DNA of 36,642 nucleotides, taken from Planctomycetia bacterium (GTDB taxonomy: Bacteria; Planctomycetota; PLA2; JAEUHO01). The notes beneath the pieces were generated by a model, which was not told the origin of the DNA, ran no database searches, and saw nothing but the letters and a program-made list of their open reading frames with translations. Both the position numbers and the translations under genes were made by a program. The stretch is taken from contig JAEUHO010000515.1 in the NCBI GenBank assembly GCA_016795345.1, forward strand, positions 1-36,642, in the 5' to 3' direction. Positions within the stretch are counted from its first letter, which is position 1, and each line of letters begins with the position of its first letter. Positions 22,710 through 33,995 of this stretch are shown here, piece after piece.

Positions 22710-25031
22710 TCATCGCACGGGCGCCACGCGGCGGGGCCAGGCGTCGAGGAAGCCGAGGCGGCCGCGCGCCACGTCGCGGCCGCGCGCGACGTTCGGGCCG
22801 CCGCCGGGGCCCCGCGGGCCGTCCTTGCCCCATGCCTTGCCGTCGCCGGCGTCGGCGTCGGGGACGGGGTCGCCGCCGCCCGCGGGCCGGCGCAGATAGC
22901 GGTCCGCGCCGCCGAGGTCGAGGAGGAACGACGTCTGCGGCAGGAAGAACGTGAAGCCCGAGCCGCGGCTCGGGACCGCGTAGTCGGGCCGTTCGTCGAT
23001 CGCGCCGAACGCGAGCGCGCCCGCGTTCGCCACGTAGACGTCGTCGCCGCCCTCGTCGAGGAGCCAGCCGTGGCTGCGGACGTTGGCGCAGCCGAGGCTG
23101 ATGATGTCGGCCTCGTAGCGGTCGTTGCCCGCGCGGTCGAAGACGAACGCGTTCACGACGTCCCAGCCGAAGCCGACGCCCGCGCCCGCCTTGGGCCCGA
23201 GGTCCACCTTCGCCCAGTCGAGGAGGAGGTGCTGGTCGTCGCCGCCCTCGTCGACGACGGCGCCGACCGCGAAGTGCGCGCCGGAGCCGTGGCTGAAGTA
23301 GACGCTGCGGTACGCGTCGTTGCCGCCGCCGTCATAGAGGAGGCCGGTGCCGAACCAGAAGCCGCAGCCCTGGCTGAAGTTGCCGGCGTCGTAGGTGTCG
23401 TCGCCGTCGACGTCGAGGAGCGCGCCGAGGCCGCCGGCCCAGGCGTGGCCGTCGTTCACGTCGCCGCGCCGGCCGAAGCCCGCGCCCTGCGCGCACGACG
23501 ACACGATCTTCTGGTCGCTGTGGTAGTCGGCGCGGCCCTTCCCCGCCGTCTCCGGTTTCGGGTCGGCGGCGTAGCGGTCGTTGCCGGCGCGGTCGGCGAG
23601 GACCCCCGCGCCGCCCGGCCCGCCGTACCCCTGGCCGTCGCCCTCGAGCAGCCGGTACTCGTCGTCGCCCGCCACGTCGAGCAGGAGGCCGACGCCGAAC
23701 GTGCCGGCGCCCTGCCCGGTGAGGCACGCGTACTCGTCGTCGCCGCCCTCGTCCACGAGCACGCCGACGCCGAGGAACCCCGCGCCGAGCGAGAGGCGGT
23801 CGCCCTTGTAGTACGTGTGCGTGTCGCCCGCGACGTAGAGGACGCCGCAGCCGAGGATGCCCGACGCGACGAGGCCCGCCGTGCGCTCGGCCTCGGGCTC
23901 CTGGAGCTCGATGCCGTAGTCCTCGCCGATGCGGTCGCCGCCGACGCGGTCGGTCAGGACGAGCGCGAGCGACAGCGGGCGGTCGGGCGCGGTGTGCGCG
24001 ATCCCGCCGCTCCAGTTGTTCGACGCCCACGCGCGCACGACGAGGAACGGCGCGTCGGCGGTCTGCGTGTTGACGCCGGAGTTGTCGAAGAGCACGGTGC
24101 CCCAGGGCGTCGGGAGCCGGAGCTCGAACGAGGGGAGCTCCTTCGGCTGGCGCACCTTCGTCGGCGGCTTGCCGTCCTCGCCGGCCTCCTCGACCTCCTC
24201 CGTCGGCCGCGCGGCCGCGAGCTCCCACCGCGCGCGCTGGACGGCCTCCATCGCCTTCAGGCTGCCGTAGGCGAGCGCGTGTTCGTCGAGCACGCGGGCG
24301 ACGTCCTCCCACAGCGGCACCGTGCGGGCGTCGTCCTCGCGGGCCGCGAGCGGCGGGTTGAGCGCCGCGAACACCGCCGCCCGCTGCGCGGGCGTCACGT
24401 GGCGCAGGCCCACGTCGATCCAGCGGCGCGCGTCGATCGTCGCGAGCACGAGCCGCGCGAGCGGCAGGTGGTACACGTCGGGCACGACCTTCACCCGCTC
24501 CGCGAGCGCCTTCGGGTCGGCGGCGAGCGGGTCGCCGGCGGCCACGAGGAGCCGCGCGAGCGCGTCGGCGAGCGGATCGGCGGCGGCGGGCTTCGGCTCG
24601 TGGAGGCCGAAGCCGAAGCCGCGGATCCCGCCGATGCGGCGGTCCACGCCGAGCGCGACCGCGAGCCGGTACAGCGCGCCGGGCCCTTCCTTCGGCGCGA
24701 CGGTCATCTGCTCGGTCGTCAGCACGTCCTCGACGACGTTGCCGAGGGTGCGCGTGAACGCGTACGTGCCGCGCGCGTCGGCGAGCAGGTCGTCGAAGAA
24801 CGGCGCCTTGAACGGCACGACGTGCGGGTACCGCGGCCACGTCGTCTTCGGCCGGAACCCGAGGTCGGCGTCCGCGAGCCCCGCCTCCTTCACGACCTCC
24901 GCGAACACGTCGGGGGCGGGCTCCGCGGACGCGGCGGGCGGCGCGGCGTGCGGGGCGGGGGGCGCGTCGGCGGCGCGCGCGACGGCACCCGTCGCGAGGA
25001 GCGCGACGAGGCCCAGGGTGATCGACCGCAT
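22710..25031 (-). CDS. Secreted protein with ten Asp/Gly-rich D-x-x-G-[DN]-D-x-Y repeats
   Basis: A 773-residue protein. A signal peptide covers residues 1-20 (LATGAVARA). Residues 35-380 form an alpha-rich unknown domain. Residues about 390-718 hold ten copies of a unit of 25-50 residues: G-x-L-[LVF]-D-x-[GA]-G-[ND]-D-x-Y, then G-x-G-x-G-x-x-x-G, for example GVLVDEGGDDEYACLTGQGA and GLLLDVAGDDEYRLLEGDGQ. Spaced Asp and Gly in register suggest a beta-solenoid with calcium sites, somewhat like RTX repeats but with a different consensus. The tail is Gly/Arg-rich. ATG 25031 is fixed by GGGAGG at 25038-25043 and the signal peptide; an in-frame start at 25058 would add nine residues without a ribosome site. 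First gene of the operon ending at 17907. Confidence 0.8.
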   Translation of the reverse strand: MRSITLGLVALLATGAVARAADAPPAPHAAPPAASAEPAPDVFAEVVKEAGLADADLGFRPKTTWPRYPHVVPFKAPFFDDLLADARGTYAFTRTLGNVVEDVLTTEQMTVAPKEGPGALYRLAVALGVDRRIGGIRGFGFGLHEPKPAAADPLADALARLLVAAGDPLAADPKALAERVKVVPDVYHLPLARLVLATIDARRWIDVGLRHVTPAQRAAVFAALNPPLAAREDDARTVPLWEDVARVLDEHALAYGSLKAMEAVQRARWELAAARPTEEVEEAGEDGKPPTKVRQPKELPSFELRLPTPWGTVLFDNSGVNTQTADAPFLVVRAWASNNWSGGIAHTAPDRPLSLALVLTDRVGGDRIGEDYGIELQEPEAERTAGLVASGILGCGVLYVAGDTHTYYKGDRLSLGAGFLGVGVLVDEGGDDEYACLTGQGAGTFGVGLLLDVAGDDEYRLLEGDGQGYGGPGGAGVLADRAGNDRYAADPKPETAGKGRADYHSDQKIVSSCAQGAGFGRRGDVNDGHAWAGGLGALLDVDGDDTYDAGNFSQGCGFWFGTGLLYDGGGNDAYRSVYFSHGSGAHFAVGAVVDEGGDDQHLLLDWAKVDLGPKAGAGVGFGWDVVNAFVFDRAGNDRYEADIISLGCANVRSHGWLLDEGGDDVYVANAGALAFGAIDERPDYAVPSRGSGFTFFLPQTSFLLDLGGADRYLRRPAGGGDPVPDADAGDGKAWGKDGPRGPGGGPNVARGRDVARGRLGFLDAWPRRVAPVR

Positions 25032-25056
25032 GGAAGTCCTCCCGACCGGGCCCCCC

Positions 25057-25066
25057 ACCGTACGAT
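25057..25066. promoter_or_regulatory. Overlapping divergent -10 boxes
   Basis: On the plus strand TACGAT at 25061-25066 lies 9 bases before ATG 25076. On the minus strand TACGGT at 25062-25057 lies 25 bases before ATG 25031, with a ribosome site between. The two boxes share a GTAC centre, so polymerase should occupy only one at a time. Confidence 0.4.
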
Positions 25067-25075
25067 CGGGACGCC

Positions 25076-26539
25076 ATGGCGACGACCCCCGTCTATCGGC
25101 CCGTGACCCCCGCGATCGTCGCCGCCCTCGAGGGGGTCGTGGGCGCGGCGAACGTCGTGCGCCCCGGCCCGGACCTCGACCGCTTCTCCCACGACGAGAG
25201 CGAGGACCTCTTCGCGGCGCCCGAGGTGGCCGTGCGCCCCGGCTCGACCGCCGAGGTCGCCGCGGTCCTCGCGCTCGCCCACCGCGAACGGGTCCCCGTC
25301 ACCCCCCGCGCCGCCGGCACCGGGCTCTCGGGCGGCGCCCTCCCCCTCCACGGCGGCATCGTCCTCTCCGTCGAGCGCATGGACCGCATCCTCGAGGTGG
25401 ACGAGGCCAACCTCGTCGCGGTCGTCCAGCCCGGCGTCGTCACCGAGCGCCTGCAGCAGGAGGTCGAGGCGCGCGGCCTCTACTACCCGCCCGACCCCGC
25501 GAGCCGCGGCTCCTGCACCCTCGGCGGCAACATCGCCGAGAACGCCGGCGGCCCCCACTGCGTCAAGTACGGCCTCACGAAGGACTACGTCCTCTCCCTC
25601 GAGGCCGTCACCGCCGACGGCCGCGTCTTCCGCACCGGCGGCAAGGTGCGCAAGGACGTCGCGGGCTACGACCTCGCGCACCTCCTCGTCGGCAGCGAGG
25701 GCACCCTCGCCGTCGTCACCGAGGCGACGCTCCGGCTGATCCCGCTCCCGCGGTTCCGCCGCGTCGTCTTCGCGCCCTTCCCCGACCTCGACGCGGCCGC
25801 CCGCGCGATCCCGGCCCTCGCGCGAGCCCGCATCACGCCGTCGGCCCTCGAGCTCATGGAGCGCTCGGCGCTGGCCGCCGCGCAGGCCCACCTCCAGCGC
25901 TCGATCCCCGGCGGCGAGGCCGAGGCGAGCCTCATCGTCGAGGTCGACGGCCACGACGAGGCCGTCGTCGAGGCCGACCTCGTCCGCGTCGGCGAGGTGC
26001 TCGCCGAGGCCGGCGCCAGCGACGTCGTCCTCGCCGACTCGCCGCAGAAGGAGCGCGACCTCTGGCGCATCCGCCGCTGCATCGGCGAGGCCGTCAAGAA
26101 GATCGCCTCCTACGTCGAGTGCGACACCGCGGTCCCGCCGTCGAAGGTCCCGGACCTCCTGCGCGGCGTGCGCGCCGCCGCCGCGCGGCACGGCGTCCGC
26201 CAGATCTCCTACGGCCACGCCGGCGACGGCAACCTCCACGTCAACGTCCTCTCCGACGACCCCGACCCCGGCCACCGCGAGCGCGCGCTGCGCCCCGCCA
26301 TCGAGGCGATCTACGCCGTCGCGACGTCGCTCGGCGGCACGATCACCGGCGAGCACGGCGTCGGCTGCGTGGCCGCGCGCTACCTCCCCACGTGCCGCGA
26401 CGCGAACGCCATCGCGGTCATGCGCGCGGTGAAGCAGGCCCTCGACCCCGCGGGGATCCTCAACCCCGGCAAGGTCCTCGACGGCCCCGACTTCCACGCG
26501 ATCCCGCGCCGCCCGCGGCGCCGGACGGCGACCCCGTGA
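25076..26539 (+). CDS. glcD: FAD-linked oxidase, glycolate/lactate oxidase GlcD type
   Basis: A 487-residue flavoprotein oxidising 2-hydroxy acids such as glycolate or D-lactate. The FAD_binding_4 domain covers about residues 45-225, with RAAGTGLSGGALPLHGGIVL as the phosphate-binding loop, then GSCTLGGNIAENAGGPHCVK and GYDLAHLLVGSEGTLAVVTE. The FAD-oxidase C domain follows, with SYGHAGDGNLHVNV and the ending GTITGEHGVGC...ALDPAGILNPGK. These are all standard GlcD landmarks at normal length. GlcD usually works with GlcE and the iron-sulfur subunit GlcF; neither is present, but a 2Fe-2S protein gene follows 22 bases later. The promoter is probably the TACGAT at 25061-25066. Substrate (glycolate or D-lactate) cannot be settled from sequence. 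Confidence 0.88.
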   Translation: MATTPVYRPVTPAIVAALEGVVGAANVVRPGPDLDRFSHDESEDLFAAPEVAVRPGSTAEVAAVLALAHRERVPVTPRAAGTGLSGGALPLHGGIVLSVERMDRILEVDEANLVAVVQPGVVTERLQQEVEARGLYYPPDPASRGSCTLGGNIAENAGGPHCVKYGLTKDYVLSLEAVTADGRVFRTGGKVRKDVAGYDLAHLLVGSEGTLAVVTEATLRLIPLPRFRRVVFAPFPDLDAAARAIPALARARITPSALELMERSALAAAQAHLQRSIPGGEAEASLIVEVDGHDEAVVEADLVRVGEVLAEAGASDVVLADSPQKERDLWRIRRCIGEAVKKIASYVECDTAVPPSKVPDLLRGVRAAAARHGVRQISYGHAGDGNLHVNVLSDDPDPGHRERALRPAIEAIYAVATSLGGTITGEHGVGCVAARYLPTCRDANAIAVMRAVKQALDPAGILNPGKVLDGPDFHAIPRRPRRRTATP

Positions 26540-26540
26540 A

Positions 26541-26565
26541 CGGGACCGCGAGGCCCGGCCCGTGA
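26541..26565 (+). repeat. Dispersed GCGAGGCCCG element filling a short intercistronic gap
   Basis: Core at 26548-26557 with the longest shared flanks (CGGGACC and GCCCG). It fills the whole 22-base gap between the GlcD-type gene and the GTG start of the NifU-like gene. Confidence 0.65.
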
Positions 26566-27434
26566 CGGTCCCCCCCGCGCTCGCGCGCCTCGCGCCGGCC
26601 TACCTCGCGCGCCTCGTCGCGCCGGCGGGCCTCGGCGACCTCGTGCCCGCGGACCTCGCGGGCGAGGTCGGCAGCGTGGTCGGCGGCGGCGGCGTGCGCG
26701 TGATGCTCCGCGTCGCCGCGCGGCCCGGCGCCGCGCCGCGCGCGACCGCGCTCGCGTTCCGGTCGCTCGGCAGCCCGTCGGCCCACGGGCCCGGCGCGGT
26801 GCTCGTCGAACGCGGCACGGGCGCGACGCTCGACGACCTCGCGGCGCTGCGCCGCGCCGATCTCCTCGCGCCGCTCGGGCCCGTGCCCCCCGCCGTCGAA
26901 CGCGCGGCCGACCGCTGCCTCGACGCGCTCGACCGCGCGCTCACCGACGGCGCCGCGGCCGCGCGGACCGACGCGCCGGGCCTGCTCACCTGCCGGTGCC
27001 TGGGCGTCGGCGACCGCGAGATCCGGCGCGCCGTGGCCCGCGGCGCCACGACGGTCCCGATGATCGGGCTCGACTGCGCGGCGGGCACGGGCTGCCACTC
27101 GTGCTGGCCCGACCTGCGCGCGCTCCTCCTCGAGACGACGACGGAGCGGACGGCCCCCGGGCCTCGCGTCCCGCCCCCCCCGACCGCGCCGCCGACCGCC
27201 CCCCCTTCCCTGCACGCGGCGATCCGCGCGCTCGTCGCGCCGTTGTGGCACGCGCAGGGCGTGACCCTGGGCGAGGTCGCGACCGACGGCGGCGCCGTGC
27301 GCCTCACGGTGGCCGCCACGGCGCCCGACGCGATGGCGAGCCCCATCGGCGCCGTCGCGCTGGCGCAACATGCGCTGCGCGAAACGATGGACGAGGCCGT
27401 CCGCGTGGTCCTCGGCGACGCGGCGCCGCGGTGA
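26562..27434 (+). CDS. NifU-like three-domain protein keeping only the central 2Fe-2S cysteines
   Basis: A 290-residue protein with the NifU domain order. Residues 30-130 match the IscU/NifU-N scaffold (GEVG, then FRSLG, ATLDDLAALRRADLLAPLG, PP), but the three cluster ligands are gone: the Cys of P-V-C-G-D is Gly41 (its Asp is Gly43), the Cys of F-G-C is Ser71, and the Cys after PP is Ala115. Residues 141-190 are an intact BFD-like 2Fe-2S domain with C144, C146, C178 and C181, spaced as in Azotobacter NifU. Residues 216-290 resemble the Nfu domain but lack its C-x-x-C. It therefore probably carries one stable 2Fe-2S cluster and cannot assemble new ones as NifU does. A Pro-rich linker at 199-215 holds a dispersed-element copy. 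GTG start, 22 bases after the GlcD-type gene, so it may serve that oxidase as electron carrier (inference). Confidence 0.75.
   Translation: MTVPPALARLAPAYLARLVAPAGLGDLVPADLAGEVGSVVGGGGVRVMLRVAARPGAAPRATALAFRSLGSPSAHGPGAVLVERGTGATLDDLAALRRADLLAPLGPVPPAVERAADRCLDALDRALTDGAAAARTDAPGLLTCRCLGVGDREIRRAVARGATTVPMIGLDCAAGTGCHSCWPDLRALLLETTTERTAPGPRVPPPPTAPPTAPPSLHAAIRALVAPLWHAQGVTLGEVATDGGAVRLTVAATAPDAMASPIGAVALAQHALRETMDEAVRVVLGDAAPR
27156..27172 (-). repeat. Dispersed element in the linker of the NifU-like protein
   Basis: Core at 27158-27167 (minus orientation), encoding APGPRV at the start of the proline-rich interdomain linker. Confidence 0.5.
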
Positions 27435-27580: not shown

Positions 27581-28039
27581 ATGACGCGCACCGCGACGAA
27601 GCCGACGTTCTCCGTGGCCGAGGCGAACCGCACGCTGCCCCTGGTGCGCGCGATCGCGCAGGACATCGTCGCGGAGTTCGGGCGGCTGAAGGAGATCGGG
27701 CGCGACCGGCGGGCCCTCGAGGTCGAGGTCGCGTCGAACCCGAAGGCCCGTCCGCGGATGGACGCGCTGAAGGCCGACATCGACGAGGGCGCGACCCGGA
27801 TCGACGCGTACATCAAGGAGCTCTCGGACCTCGGCGTCGAGCTGAAGGACCCCGAGCGCGGGCTGGTGGACTTCCCCTCGGAGCGCGCCGGCCGGGCCGT
27901 CTGGCTGTGCTGGAAGCTCGGCGAGGAATCCGTCGCCCACTGGCACGGGATGGACGAGACGTTCTCGGACCGCCGCCCGATCGAGGCCGGCGGCAAGCGG
28001 CCGGAGCGGCGCGCGACGGGCGAAGGCCCCGCGACGTGA
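27581..28039 (+). CDS. DUF2203 family protein
   Basis: A 152-residue mostly helical protein. PTFSVAEANRTLPLVRAIAQ at the start, a charged helical middle, and RGLVDFPSERAGRAVWLCWK then LGEESVAHWHGMDETFSDRR near the end are characteristic of DUF2203, a small family widespread in planctomycetes, Firmicutes and others with no established function. The conserved His/Trp/Asp cluster near the C-terminus suggests a binding site but nothing more can be said. The ATG follows a good -10 box by 25 bases. The stop overlaps the GTG of the next gene (GTGA), so the two are coupled. Confidence 0.82.
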   Translation: MTRTATKPTFSVAEANRTLPLVRAIAQDIVAEFGRLKEIGRDRRALEVEVASNPKARPRMDALKADIDEGATRIDAYIKELSDLGVELKDPERGLVDFPSERAGRAVWLCWKLGEESVAHWHGMDETFSDRRPIEAGGKRPERRATGEGPAT

Positions 28040-28509: not shown

Positions 28510-28896
28510 GTGGACGCCGCGCCCCCGCCCCCGCCGTCGCCCTCCCCGTCGCCGTCGCGCGCGCCGTTCGCGGCCCACGTGGTCGTCTGCCACGGCACCT
28601 CGTGCACGGAGCGCGGCCAGGGCCTGCCCGCGCGCGAGCTGCGCAACGCGCTGTTCGAGGGCGGGCTGCAGGGCGCGGTCCGCGTGACGAAGGCCACGTG
28701 CCTCAACCTGTGCAACCTCGCGCCGAACTGCGTCGTGTACGGCGCGGGCCCCACCGACGCGGCGCCGGCGGGCGGCGCGTGGTACGCGGGCCTCACGCCG
28801 TCGAAGGTGCGGCGCATCGTCGACGAGCACCTGAAGGGCGGGCGGCCCGTCGCCGACCTGCTCGTGCGCTGGGACCATCCCGACGTCGCGACGTGA
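28510..28896 (+). CDS. Thioredoxin-like 2Fe-2S ferredoxin
   Basis: A 128-residue protein. After a Pro/Ser-rich leader (1-20) comes the thioredoxin-like ferredoxin fold: VVVCHGTSC with C27 and C32, then VTKATCLNLCNLAPNC with C64 and C68, the four cluster ligands, plus an extra C74. AWYAGLTPSKVRRIVDEHLK and GGRPVADLLV close the domain, as in Aquifex Fd4-like and NuoE C-terminal domains. It should carry one electron via a 2Fe-2S cluster; the redox partner is unknown, though the 2Fe-2S NifU-like protein and GlcD-type oxidase lie upstream. GTG is used as start because no ATG exists before the core. The gene ends at a hairpin shared with the convergent folE. Confidence 0.82.
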   Translation: MDAAPPPPPSPSPSPSRAPFAAHVVVCHGTSCTERGQGLPARELRNALFEGGLQGAVRVTKATCLNLCNLAPNCVVYGAGPTDAAPAGGAWYAGLTPSKVRRIVDEHLKGGRPVADLLVRWDHPDVAT

Positions 28897-33340: not shown

Positions 33341-33691
33341 TCAGCGGCCCAGCACGAGGTCGAGGGCGGCAAAGATCTCGGTCAGCGCCGTCGGGGTCAG
33401 CCGCCCGGCGCGGGCGCGCAGGAGGGACTTCGTCGTCGTGTGCACCTGATCGACGCGCGCGAGGGACTCGCGCGTCAGCCCGGACGCCCGCGCGTCGAGC
33501 CGGACCGTCCCCGGCTGCGTCGCGAACGCGAGATTCGACGTCAGGGGCACGACGACGATCGTCTCGAGGCGGCTGTCGTTGAACGGGTCGGACTGGAGGA
33601 CGACGACGGGCCGCCGAAAGCCGGGTTCGGAGGCCGCAGGCTCCGGCAGGTCCGCCCACCACACGTCCCCTTGGCGGATCAGTCCTCCCAC
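33341..33691 (-). CDS. MazF/PemK-type toxin endoribonuclease
   Basis: A 116-residue protein with the CcdB/MazF fold: IRQGDVWWADLPEP near the start, then GFRRPVVVLQSDPFNDSRLE, TIVVVPLTSNLAF, and ESLARVDQVHTTTKSLL. The R-P-V-V-V-L-Q-x-D and V-P-L-T-S-N motifs hold the usual RNA-cutting and dimer residues. Such toxins cut mRNA at short motifs when freed from their antitoxin. GTG 33691 has GGAGG 5 bases upstream and overlaps the antitoxin's end by 13 bases, so the pair is translated together, antitoxin first. It lies next to tRNA-Leu, a common insertion site for mobile DNA, though no attachment repeat or integrase was seen. Confidence 0.88.
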   Translation of the reverse strand: MGGLIRQGDVWWADLPEPAASEPGFRRPVVVLQSDPFNDSRLETIVVVPLTSNLAFATQPGTVRLDARASGLTRESLARVDQVHTTTKSLLRARAGRLTPTALTEIFAALDLVLGR

Positions 33692-33921
33692 GTGAGCCTC
33701 CGCAGGATCGCCGCCGCCGAGTCGAGGACGCCGGGCGCGACGTCCTGCGGCCGGTCGCCGATCGCCGCGTCGATCACGGCGCGGAGTGCCTCCGGTTCAT
33801 GGCGCGCCACGAACTCGCGGAGCGCCGCCGCGTAGAGCGCGCTGCGGCTCGAGCCGAGGCGCGCCGCGAGCGCTTCGCCGGCGGCGAACAGGTCGTTGGG
33901 GATGGAGACGGCGGTCTTCAT
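33679..33921 (-). CDS. Ribbon-helix-helix antitoxin of the MazF-type pair
   Basis: An 80-residue protein. MKTAVSIPNDLFAAGEALAA is the beta strand and first helix of an RHH DNA-binding domain, followed by RLGSSRSALYAAALREFVAR as the second helix. The acidic, disordered C-terminus (PGVLDSAAAILRRLTWED) should wrap around the toxin. RHH antitoxins dimerise, bind a palindrome in their own promoter and block it. The start is taken as ATG 33921, not the in-frame codon at 33966: the RHH strand begins there and a TATAAC box lies 7 bases upstream inside the palindrome CCCCTGG...CCAGGGG. This makes it a leaderless, autoregulated gene. Confidence 0.88.
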   Translation of the reverse strand: MKTAVSIPNDLFAAGEALAARLGSSRSALYAAALREFVARHEPEALRAVIDAAIGDRPQDVAPGVLDSAAAILRRLTWED

Positions 33922-33922
33922 A

Positions 33923-33942
33923 CCCCTGGTTATACCCAGGGG
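33923..33942. promoter_or_regulatory. Palindromic operator over the toxin-antitoxin -10 box
   Basis: CCCCTGG at 33923-33929 and CCAGGGG at 33936-33942 are exact inverted arms around TTATAC. On the minus strand the centre holds TATAAC (33934-33929), 7 bases before the antitoxin ATG. Bound antitoxin would cover the promoter and the start codon. Confidence 0.65.
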
Positions 33943-33995
33943 AGAGGCGGTGGGGCGAGGGCGCATGCCCGTACTCGCGCGAGTCGGCTCGCGAG

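Follow-up and report, generated by a model that had tools for sequence, protein, structure and literature searches.

The locus studied here raises the question of what a NifU-derived protein does once its scaffold cysteines are gone, and what part it plays beside a GlcD-type oxidase. We analyzed a stretch of 36,642 nucleotides (the window), which is one contig (C153) of a genome, G000, that is 88% complete, and compared it with 11 other genomes of the same family (f1) and with a sister family of the same order (f2). Orthologs of the window protein are present in 10 of the 11 other f1 genomes (11 orthologs with that of the window), at 35-59% identity; the relatives identified in a named collection are without exception uncultured Planctomycetota. 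No ortholog is visible in the remaining f1 genome (G011), where glcD runs into the contig end and the position of the gene lies beyond it; gene loss in this genome was therefore dismissed.

Domain architecture and cysteine content

The gene and the parts of its product to which our analysis refers are the following:

26562-27434, + strand: NifU-derived gene without scaffold cysteines, 290 aa, GTG start (open reading frame, Pfam, TIGR02000, AlphaFold)
26595-26960, + strand: IscU-like N-domain, residues 12-133, with the conserved VGGxGVR loop (NifU_N in 11 of 11 orthologs, Foldseek to IscU, ligand columns)
26985-27146, + strand: BFD-like [2Fe-2S] domain, residues 142-195 (Fer2_BFD, E=1.3e-11)
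within 26991-27104, + strand: codons of the cluster ligands C144 (26991-26993), C146 (26997-26999), C178 (27093-27095) and C181 (27102-27104) (sequence, invariant columns)
27210-27431, + strand: degenerate Nfu-like C-domain without CxxC, residues 217-290 (hhalign)

A preliminary description of this DNA had proposed that three NifU-type domains occur in order, and this is borne out by profile and by fold. Using Pfam, Fer2_BFD matches residues 144-189 of the window protein with 45 bits against a cut-off of 26, and NifU_N matches with E=2.7e-4 and 21.5 bits, which is slightly below its 22-bit cut-off; both domains are matched by all 11 orthologs, with a best NifU_N value of 1.4e-9. For the C-terminal part, profile-profile alignment to canonical Nfu domains (hhalign) gives 88% probability and E=2.8e-6, and PF01106 is matched weakly by 4 of the 11 orthologs (best 0.011). 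The N-domain of the AlphaFold model (pLDDT 86.9, pTM 0.86) has an IscU fold, with Foldseek matches to IscU crystal structures at E=6e-6 and a TM-score of up to 0.84 by target length. The outer domains therefore both resemble those of NifU, the first of them by fold as well as by profile. The full-length profile of canonical NifU (TIGR02000, NifU_proper) gives 54.2 bits over residues 29-208, below its curated cut-off of 273.3.

NifU contains nine conserved cysteines in a 3 + 4 + 2 arrangement (PMC2644719), and only the central four are kept in f1. Our alignment places Gly41, Ser71 and Ala115 of the window protein in the three scaffold columns and Ala/Ala in the columns of the Nfu CxxC, i.e., the same positions named in the preliminary description, and the residue after G42 is a Gly in place of the Asp that accompanies IscU/SufU-type ligands. 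All five of these cysteines are absent from 11 of 11 f1 orthologs, whereas C144, C146, C178 and C181, in the CxC...CxxC pattern of the BFD domain, are invariant in all 11. These four are the cysteines named in the preliminary description; 31 residues separate the second from the third, compared to 32 in a canonical relative (L096, counted by eye). The f1 protein shares the domain order and BFD cysteine pattern of NifU of the Azotobacter/Helicobacter type (TIGR02000), but differs from it in lacking five of the nine conserved cysteines and in having glcD, not nifS, as its neighbor. We thus class it as a NifU-derived [2Fe-2S] protein, which has the NifU architecture and the IscU fold without the NifU ligands, score and partner gene or the IscU ligands.

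The loss of all catalytic ligands, together with the fast evolution of the outer domains, could be read as a decaying pseudogene or as a sequence error. We rejected this reading as exceedingly improbable, since the gene is found in 11 genomes, where none of the relatives retains the scaffold cysteines and where 45 positions are invariant, including all BFD ligands, and since the fold is predicted with confidence and selection is evident, with a dN/dS below 0.5 (approximately 0.3-0.4) in five of six closer ortholog pairs and with weaker constraint (approximately 0.67) for the window versus G001. The GTG start is common to all 11 orthologs. In addition, the loop that once carried a scaffold cysteine (GxxGSxVGGxGVR) is among the best-conserved stretches of the f1 orthologs, and its strong conservation suggests, at the level of sequence, a surface put to new use rather than decay.

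An engineered protein provides the closest comparison. In the Azotobacter vinelandii variant CA-NifU (C35A/C62A/C106A/C272A/C275A), the five positions equivalent to those changed in f1 are likewise not cysteine, and the only remaining site, the core [2Fe-2S], is still held, with 1.98 Fe (PMC13382767). CA-NifU is a laboratory mutant, whereas the f1 proteins are natural, with Gly, Ser, Ala and others at these positions and with changed surrounding loops. Regarded as natural versions of CA-NifU, the f1 proteins very probably bind one permanent [2Fe-2S] cluster and lack scaffold function; occupancy of the BFD site is what this analogy leads us to expect.

The glcD locus

The two genes that flank the NifU-derived gene in the window are:

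25076-26539, + strand: glcD-type FAD-linked oxidase, 487 aa, putative partner (FAD_binding_4, FAD-oxidase_C, glcD profile)
27581-28039, + strand: DUF2203 gene, immediately downstream of the NifU-like gene in all 11 loci (Pfam E=8.8e-35, gene order)

The upstream enzyme contains both FAD domains (Pfam FAD_binding_4, E=1e-44; FAD-oxidase_C, E=5e-65) and matches the glcD profile with 418 bits, below the cut-off of 568, as a GlcD-type catalytic subunit. Among solved structures, its closest relative is LctD from the Ldh-EtfAB complex (7qh2_C, 1.8e-101), and no Fe-S domain was matched in this flavoprotein by Pfam and curated-profile searches. In the window, glcD ends at 26539 and the NifU-like gene starts at 26562, which agrees with the 22-base gap noted earlier. 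A survey of the f1 loci demonstrated that glcD is directly upstream of the NifU-like gene in 11 of 11, with a 4-nt overlap in three genomes, a gap of 3-44 nt in seven and a gap of 355 nt in one, i.e., overlapping or within 44 nt in 10. An adjacent nifS gene was not found in any of the 11 loci, where the neighbors are glcD and DUF2203; the tie of DUF2203 to the NifU-like system is one of gene order only, and DUF2203 also lies beside glcD in three of five f2 loci.

Several other genes occur in this region of the window. A divergently oriented gene at 22710-25058 (- strand) encodes a 782-aa protein without a Pfam match, which is found beside glcD in all f1 loci with enough contig (46-80% identity). 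Approximately 1 kb downstream, 28510-28896 (+ strand) encodes a thioredoxin-like [2Fe-2S] ferredoxin with a weak Pfam match (E=4.6e-4), present near the locus elsewhere only in the same-genus genome G001. At 33341-33966 (- strand), a putative MazF/PemK-type toxin gene overlaps a small putative antitoxin gene of the ribbon-helix-helix type, judged by eye.

The locus also lacks a partner expected of a GlcDEF-type enzyme. The absence of a GlcF gene nearby, noted in the preliminary description, extends to the entire G000 assembly (88% complete), which contains zero CCG domains (PF02754). No CCG or GlcF-type protein was found in 8 of the 11 gene-bearing f1 genomes, G000 included, so that the GlcF Fe-S subunit is missing from G000 and seven others; CCG proteins are present in the other three. 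Compared to the GlcDEF glycolate oxidase and the LctBCD lactate dehydrogenase, the f1 locus shares the GlcD/LctD-type catalytic flavoprotein but has no GlcE, GlcF or adjoining etf gene, and the NifU-like protein is found in the partner position. Four-cysteine motifs of the BFD type have been described in flavin dehydrogenases with overlapping genes (PMC4575208), i.e., the opine and D-hydroxyproline dehydrogenases (OdhABC), which resemble f1 in having a motif of a similar general kind and overlapping genes; there, however, an alpha subunit that binds FAD carries the motif, and the dehydrogenase belongs to another family (PMC4575208). Bacterioferritin-associated ferredoxin (Bfd, PF04324), a one-electron carrier, shares the [2Fe-2S] domain family with f1, but the f1 BFD domain lies between two NifU-derived domains, and its gene adjoins that of a flavin dehydrogenase, not bacterioferritin.

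The tight coupling to glcD, the missing GlcF and the BFD-type motifs of flavin dehydrogenases lead us to infer an electron relay. According to this proposal, the NifU-derived protein would no longer build iron-sulfur clusters, and its BFD domain would hold one permanent [2Fe-2S], which the SUF system presumably provides. The ligand-free IscU and Nfu domains would stay as a framework, and the old cysteine loop, now fixed as VGGxGVR, would probably serve in docking. Produced along with the neighboring GlcD-type FAD dehydrogenase, the protein would most likely relay single electrons from GlcD to the next acceptor, as the counterpart of GlcF in GlcDEF. We see an even chance that the f1 protein shuttles electrons between GlcD and a further carrier, and the reading as a whole, that of a former scaffold with one fixed [2Fe-2S] serving GlcD as a one-electron relay, is about equally balanced between right and wrong. 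Physical contact between the NifU-like protein and GlcD is presumed from gene order, and the direction of electron flow at GlcD is likewise presumed. A 2020 paper stated that the electron acceptor of glycolate oxidation had not yet been worked out for any bacterium (PMC7486775); if the link with GlcD is true, the f1 protein is a candidate electron acceptor for a GlcD-type enzyme.

Possible competing electron routes and iron-sulfur supply

The relay reading is weakened by the sister family and by the presence of ETF. In f2, the same glcD locus occurs without the NifU-like gene, with glcD beside folE in 5 of 5 loci and DUF2203 between them in 3 of 5; thus either f1 acquired the NifU-like gene or f2 lost it, and a GlcD of the f1/f2 type can function in its absence. 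The main rival acceptor for GlcD electrons is ETF, since LctD, the nearest solved relative of this GlcD, uses EtfAB (PMC9232219), and since ETF-alpha is present in 13 of 13 genomes tested and an ETF-QO-type domain in 12 of 14. The electrons of GlcD could then go to ETF as in LctD, and the NifU-like protein would merely be co-expressed for another process, e.g., iron or redox functions with DUF2203 or general ferredoxin duty. We regard this as possible but rather unlikely, given that the NifU-like gene is coupled to glcD, with 4-nt overlaps included, and not to etf genes, and that the ETF-QO homolog of f1 lacks one 4Fe-4S cysteine in 8 of 8 genomes.

Examination of this homolog (L161-L167, L170) showed that the missing residue is the final cysteine of the 4Fe-4S motif CxxCxxC, which reads CVDCKAT, CVDCRAT or CIDCKAT, compared to the usual CVHCKTC in two f2 genomes (L168-L169). 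By its sequence, the flavoprotein electron route therefore seems to have been remodelled in f1; a tie between this change and the NifU-like protein is speculative.

The preliminary description had also suggested an assembly protein turned into an electron carrier or sensor. Loss of cluster assembly with retention of the [2Fe-2S] site is well supported, and a carrier is plausible from gene order; the sensor part has fared less well. A fuse or sensor would lose its redox- or oxygen-labile [2Fe-2S] in oxidative stress and thereby shut down the GlcD pathway, in line with a proposal made for Bfd, whose BFD-type cluster is sensitive to reactive oxygen species (PMC12363616), and the invariant surface loop is a possible effector face. 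As Pfam found no output or DNA-binding domain in the window protein, we consider such a role improbable.

Residual iron-sulfur delivery, in which a cluster received in the core domain is handed on to another protein, would fit the NifU ancestry and the neighborhoods of other lineages with lost scaffold cysteines, which still adjoin nifS (f23) or an isc cluster (f40), and transfer of [2Fe-2S] from GrxD to the NifU core domain is possible (PMC13382767). The core cluster of NifU is, however, tightly bound, and the GrxD transfer is one-way into NifU (PMC13382767); no f1 member retains either transient site, and the neighboring GlcD is a flavoprotein without a matched Fe-S domain. A delivery or maturation factor is accordingly given little credence. 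G000 also contains its own SUF genes, with two SufB/SufD-type matches and with sufS, an intact sufU (three cysteines) and sufT on contig C384, the latter three identified by reading their sequences. This leaves no vacant scaffold role, and the NifU-like protein is not required as a scaffold in G000, where it is the only BFD protein found. Elsewhere in this genome (contig C556, approximately 1583-1894, - strand; L042/L139), a small NifU_N protein is encoded beside a fur-like gene; it keeps the first two scaffold cysteines and has Ala at the third (KRHALR).

NifU homologs with few or no scaffold cysteines across Planctomycetota

We searched the f1 profile against 392 Planctomycetota genomes and read selected loci, chosen by score and family, so that the counts given here are not frequencies. 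In canonical NifUs, which come from 23 genomes of 11 families, the three scaffold cysteines are complete, and a NifS-like gene adjoins most of those examined. A second set consists of 47 NifU homologs from 10 families (f1, f11, f19, f23, f28, f40, f47, f53, f80 and f82), which retain no more than one cysteine across the three scaffold columns and have all four BFD cysteines in 47 of 47. Within this set, f23 and f80 retain the Nfu CxxC, f11 has lost both the scaffold and the Nfu cysteines, and no Nfu domain is recognizable in the alignment in f19, f28, f47, f53 and f82. In f23 (L014, L079, L082, L090, L092), the IscU-site cysteines are gone, the Nfu CxSC is intact and a nifS-like gene adjoins; f23 NifU may be an intermediate type, with cluster assembly on the Nfu domain only.

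These sequences leave undecided whether the cysteine loss across the phylum had a single origin. The tree branch between canonical and cysteine-less proteins is weak (72/21), some rows are very long, and f23 and f80 are placed near canonical NifU with support, so one loss and several losses are not separable. Planctomycetota may have repeatedly turned the NifU scaffold into a dedicated plug-in [2Fe-2S] carrier, with the IscU domain as a docking module and with partners that differ by lineage (GlcD in f1, thioredoxin in f28, the isc cluster in f40 and NifS in f23), a proposal that we put forward tentatively, as one that may well prove wrong. In the loci examined, NifU beside glcD was not found outside f1.

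We found no description of cysteine-less NifU proteins in the open-access literature. These proteins are natural separation-of-function forms, in which the transient sites are gone and the permanent core cluster is left, and they offer a way to ask what the core [2Fe-2S] domain itself does, a role so far probed by engineered mutants. An annotation as "NifU" in Planctomycetota is not evidence of cluster assembly or nitrogen fixation.

Individual families show further neighborhoods. An acnB-like gene (aconitase B, by eye) lies near 4 of 17 f11 loci (L036, L085, L086, L145), and on this count aconitase B was rejected as a general partner in f11. In all three f28 loci (L099, L155, L156), the gene for a short cysteine-less NifU_N-BFD protein directly adjoins a thioredoxin gene of the same orientation. 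In f40 (L038, G058; 513 to about 6620), an iscR-iscS-iscU-iscA-hscB-hscA-iscX cluster, its genes named by reading their sequences and no fdx gene seen among them, ends with a cysteine-less NifU-BFD gene, and the protein encoded by this last gene has a long C-terminal extension that appears TPR-like by eye.
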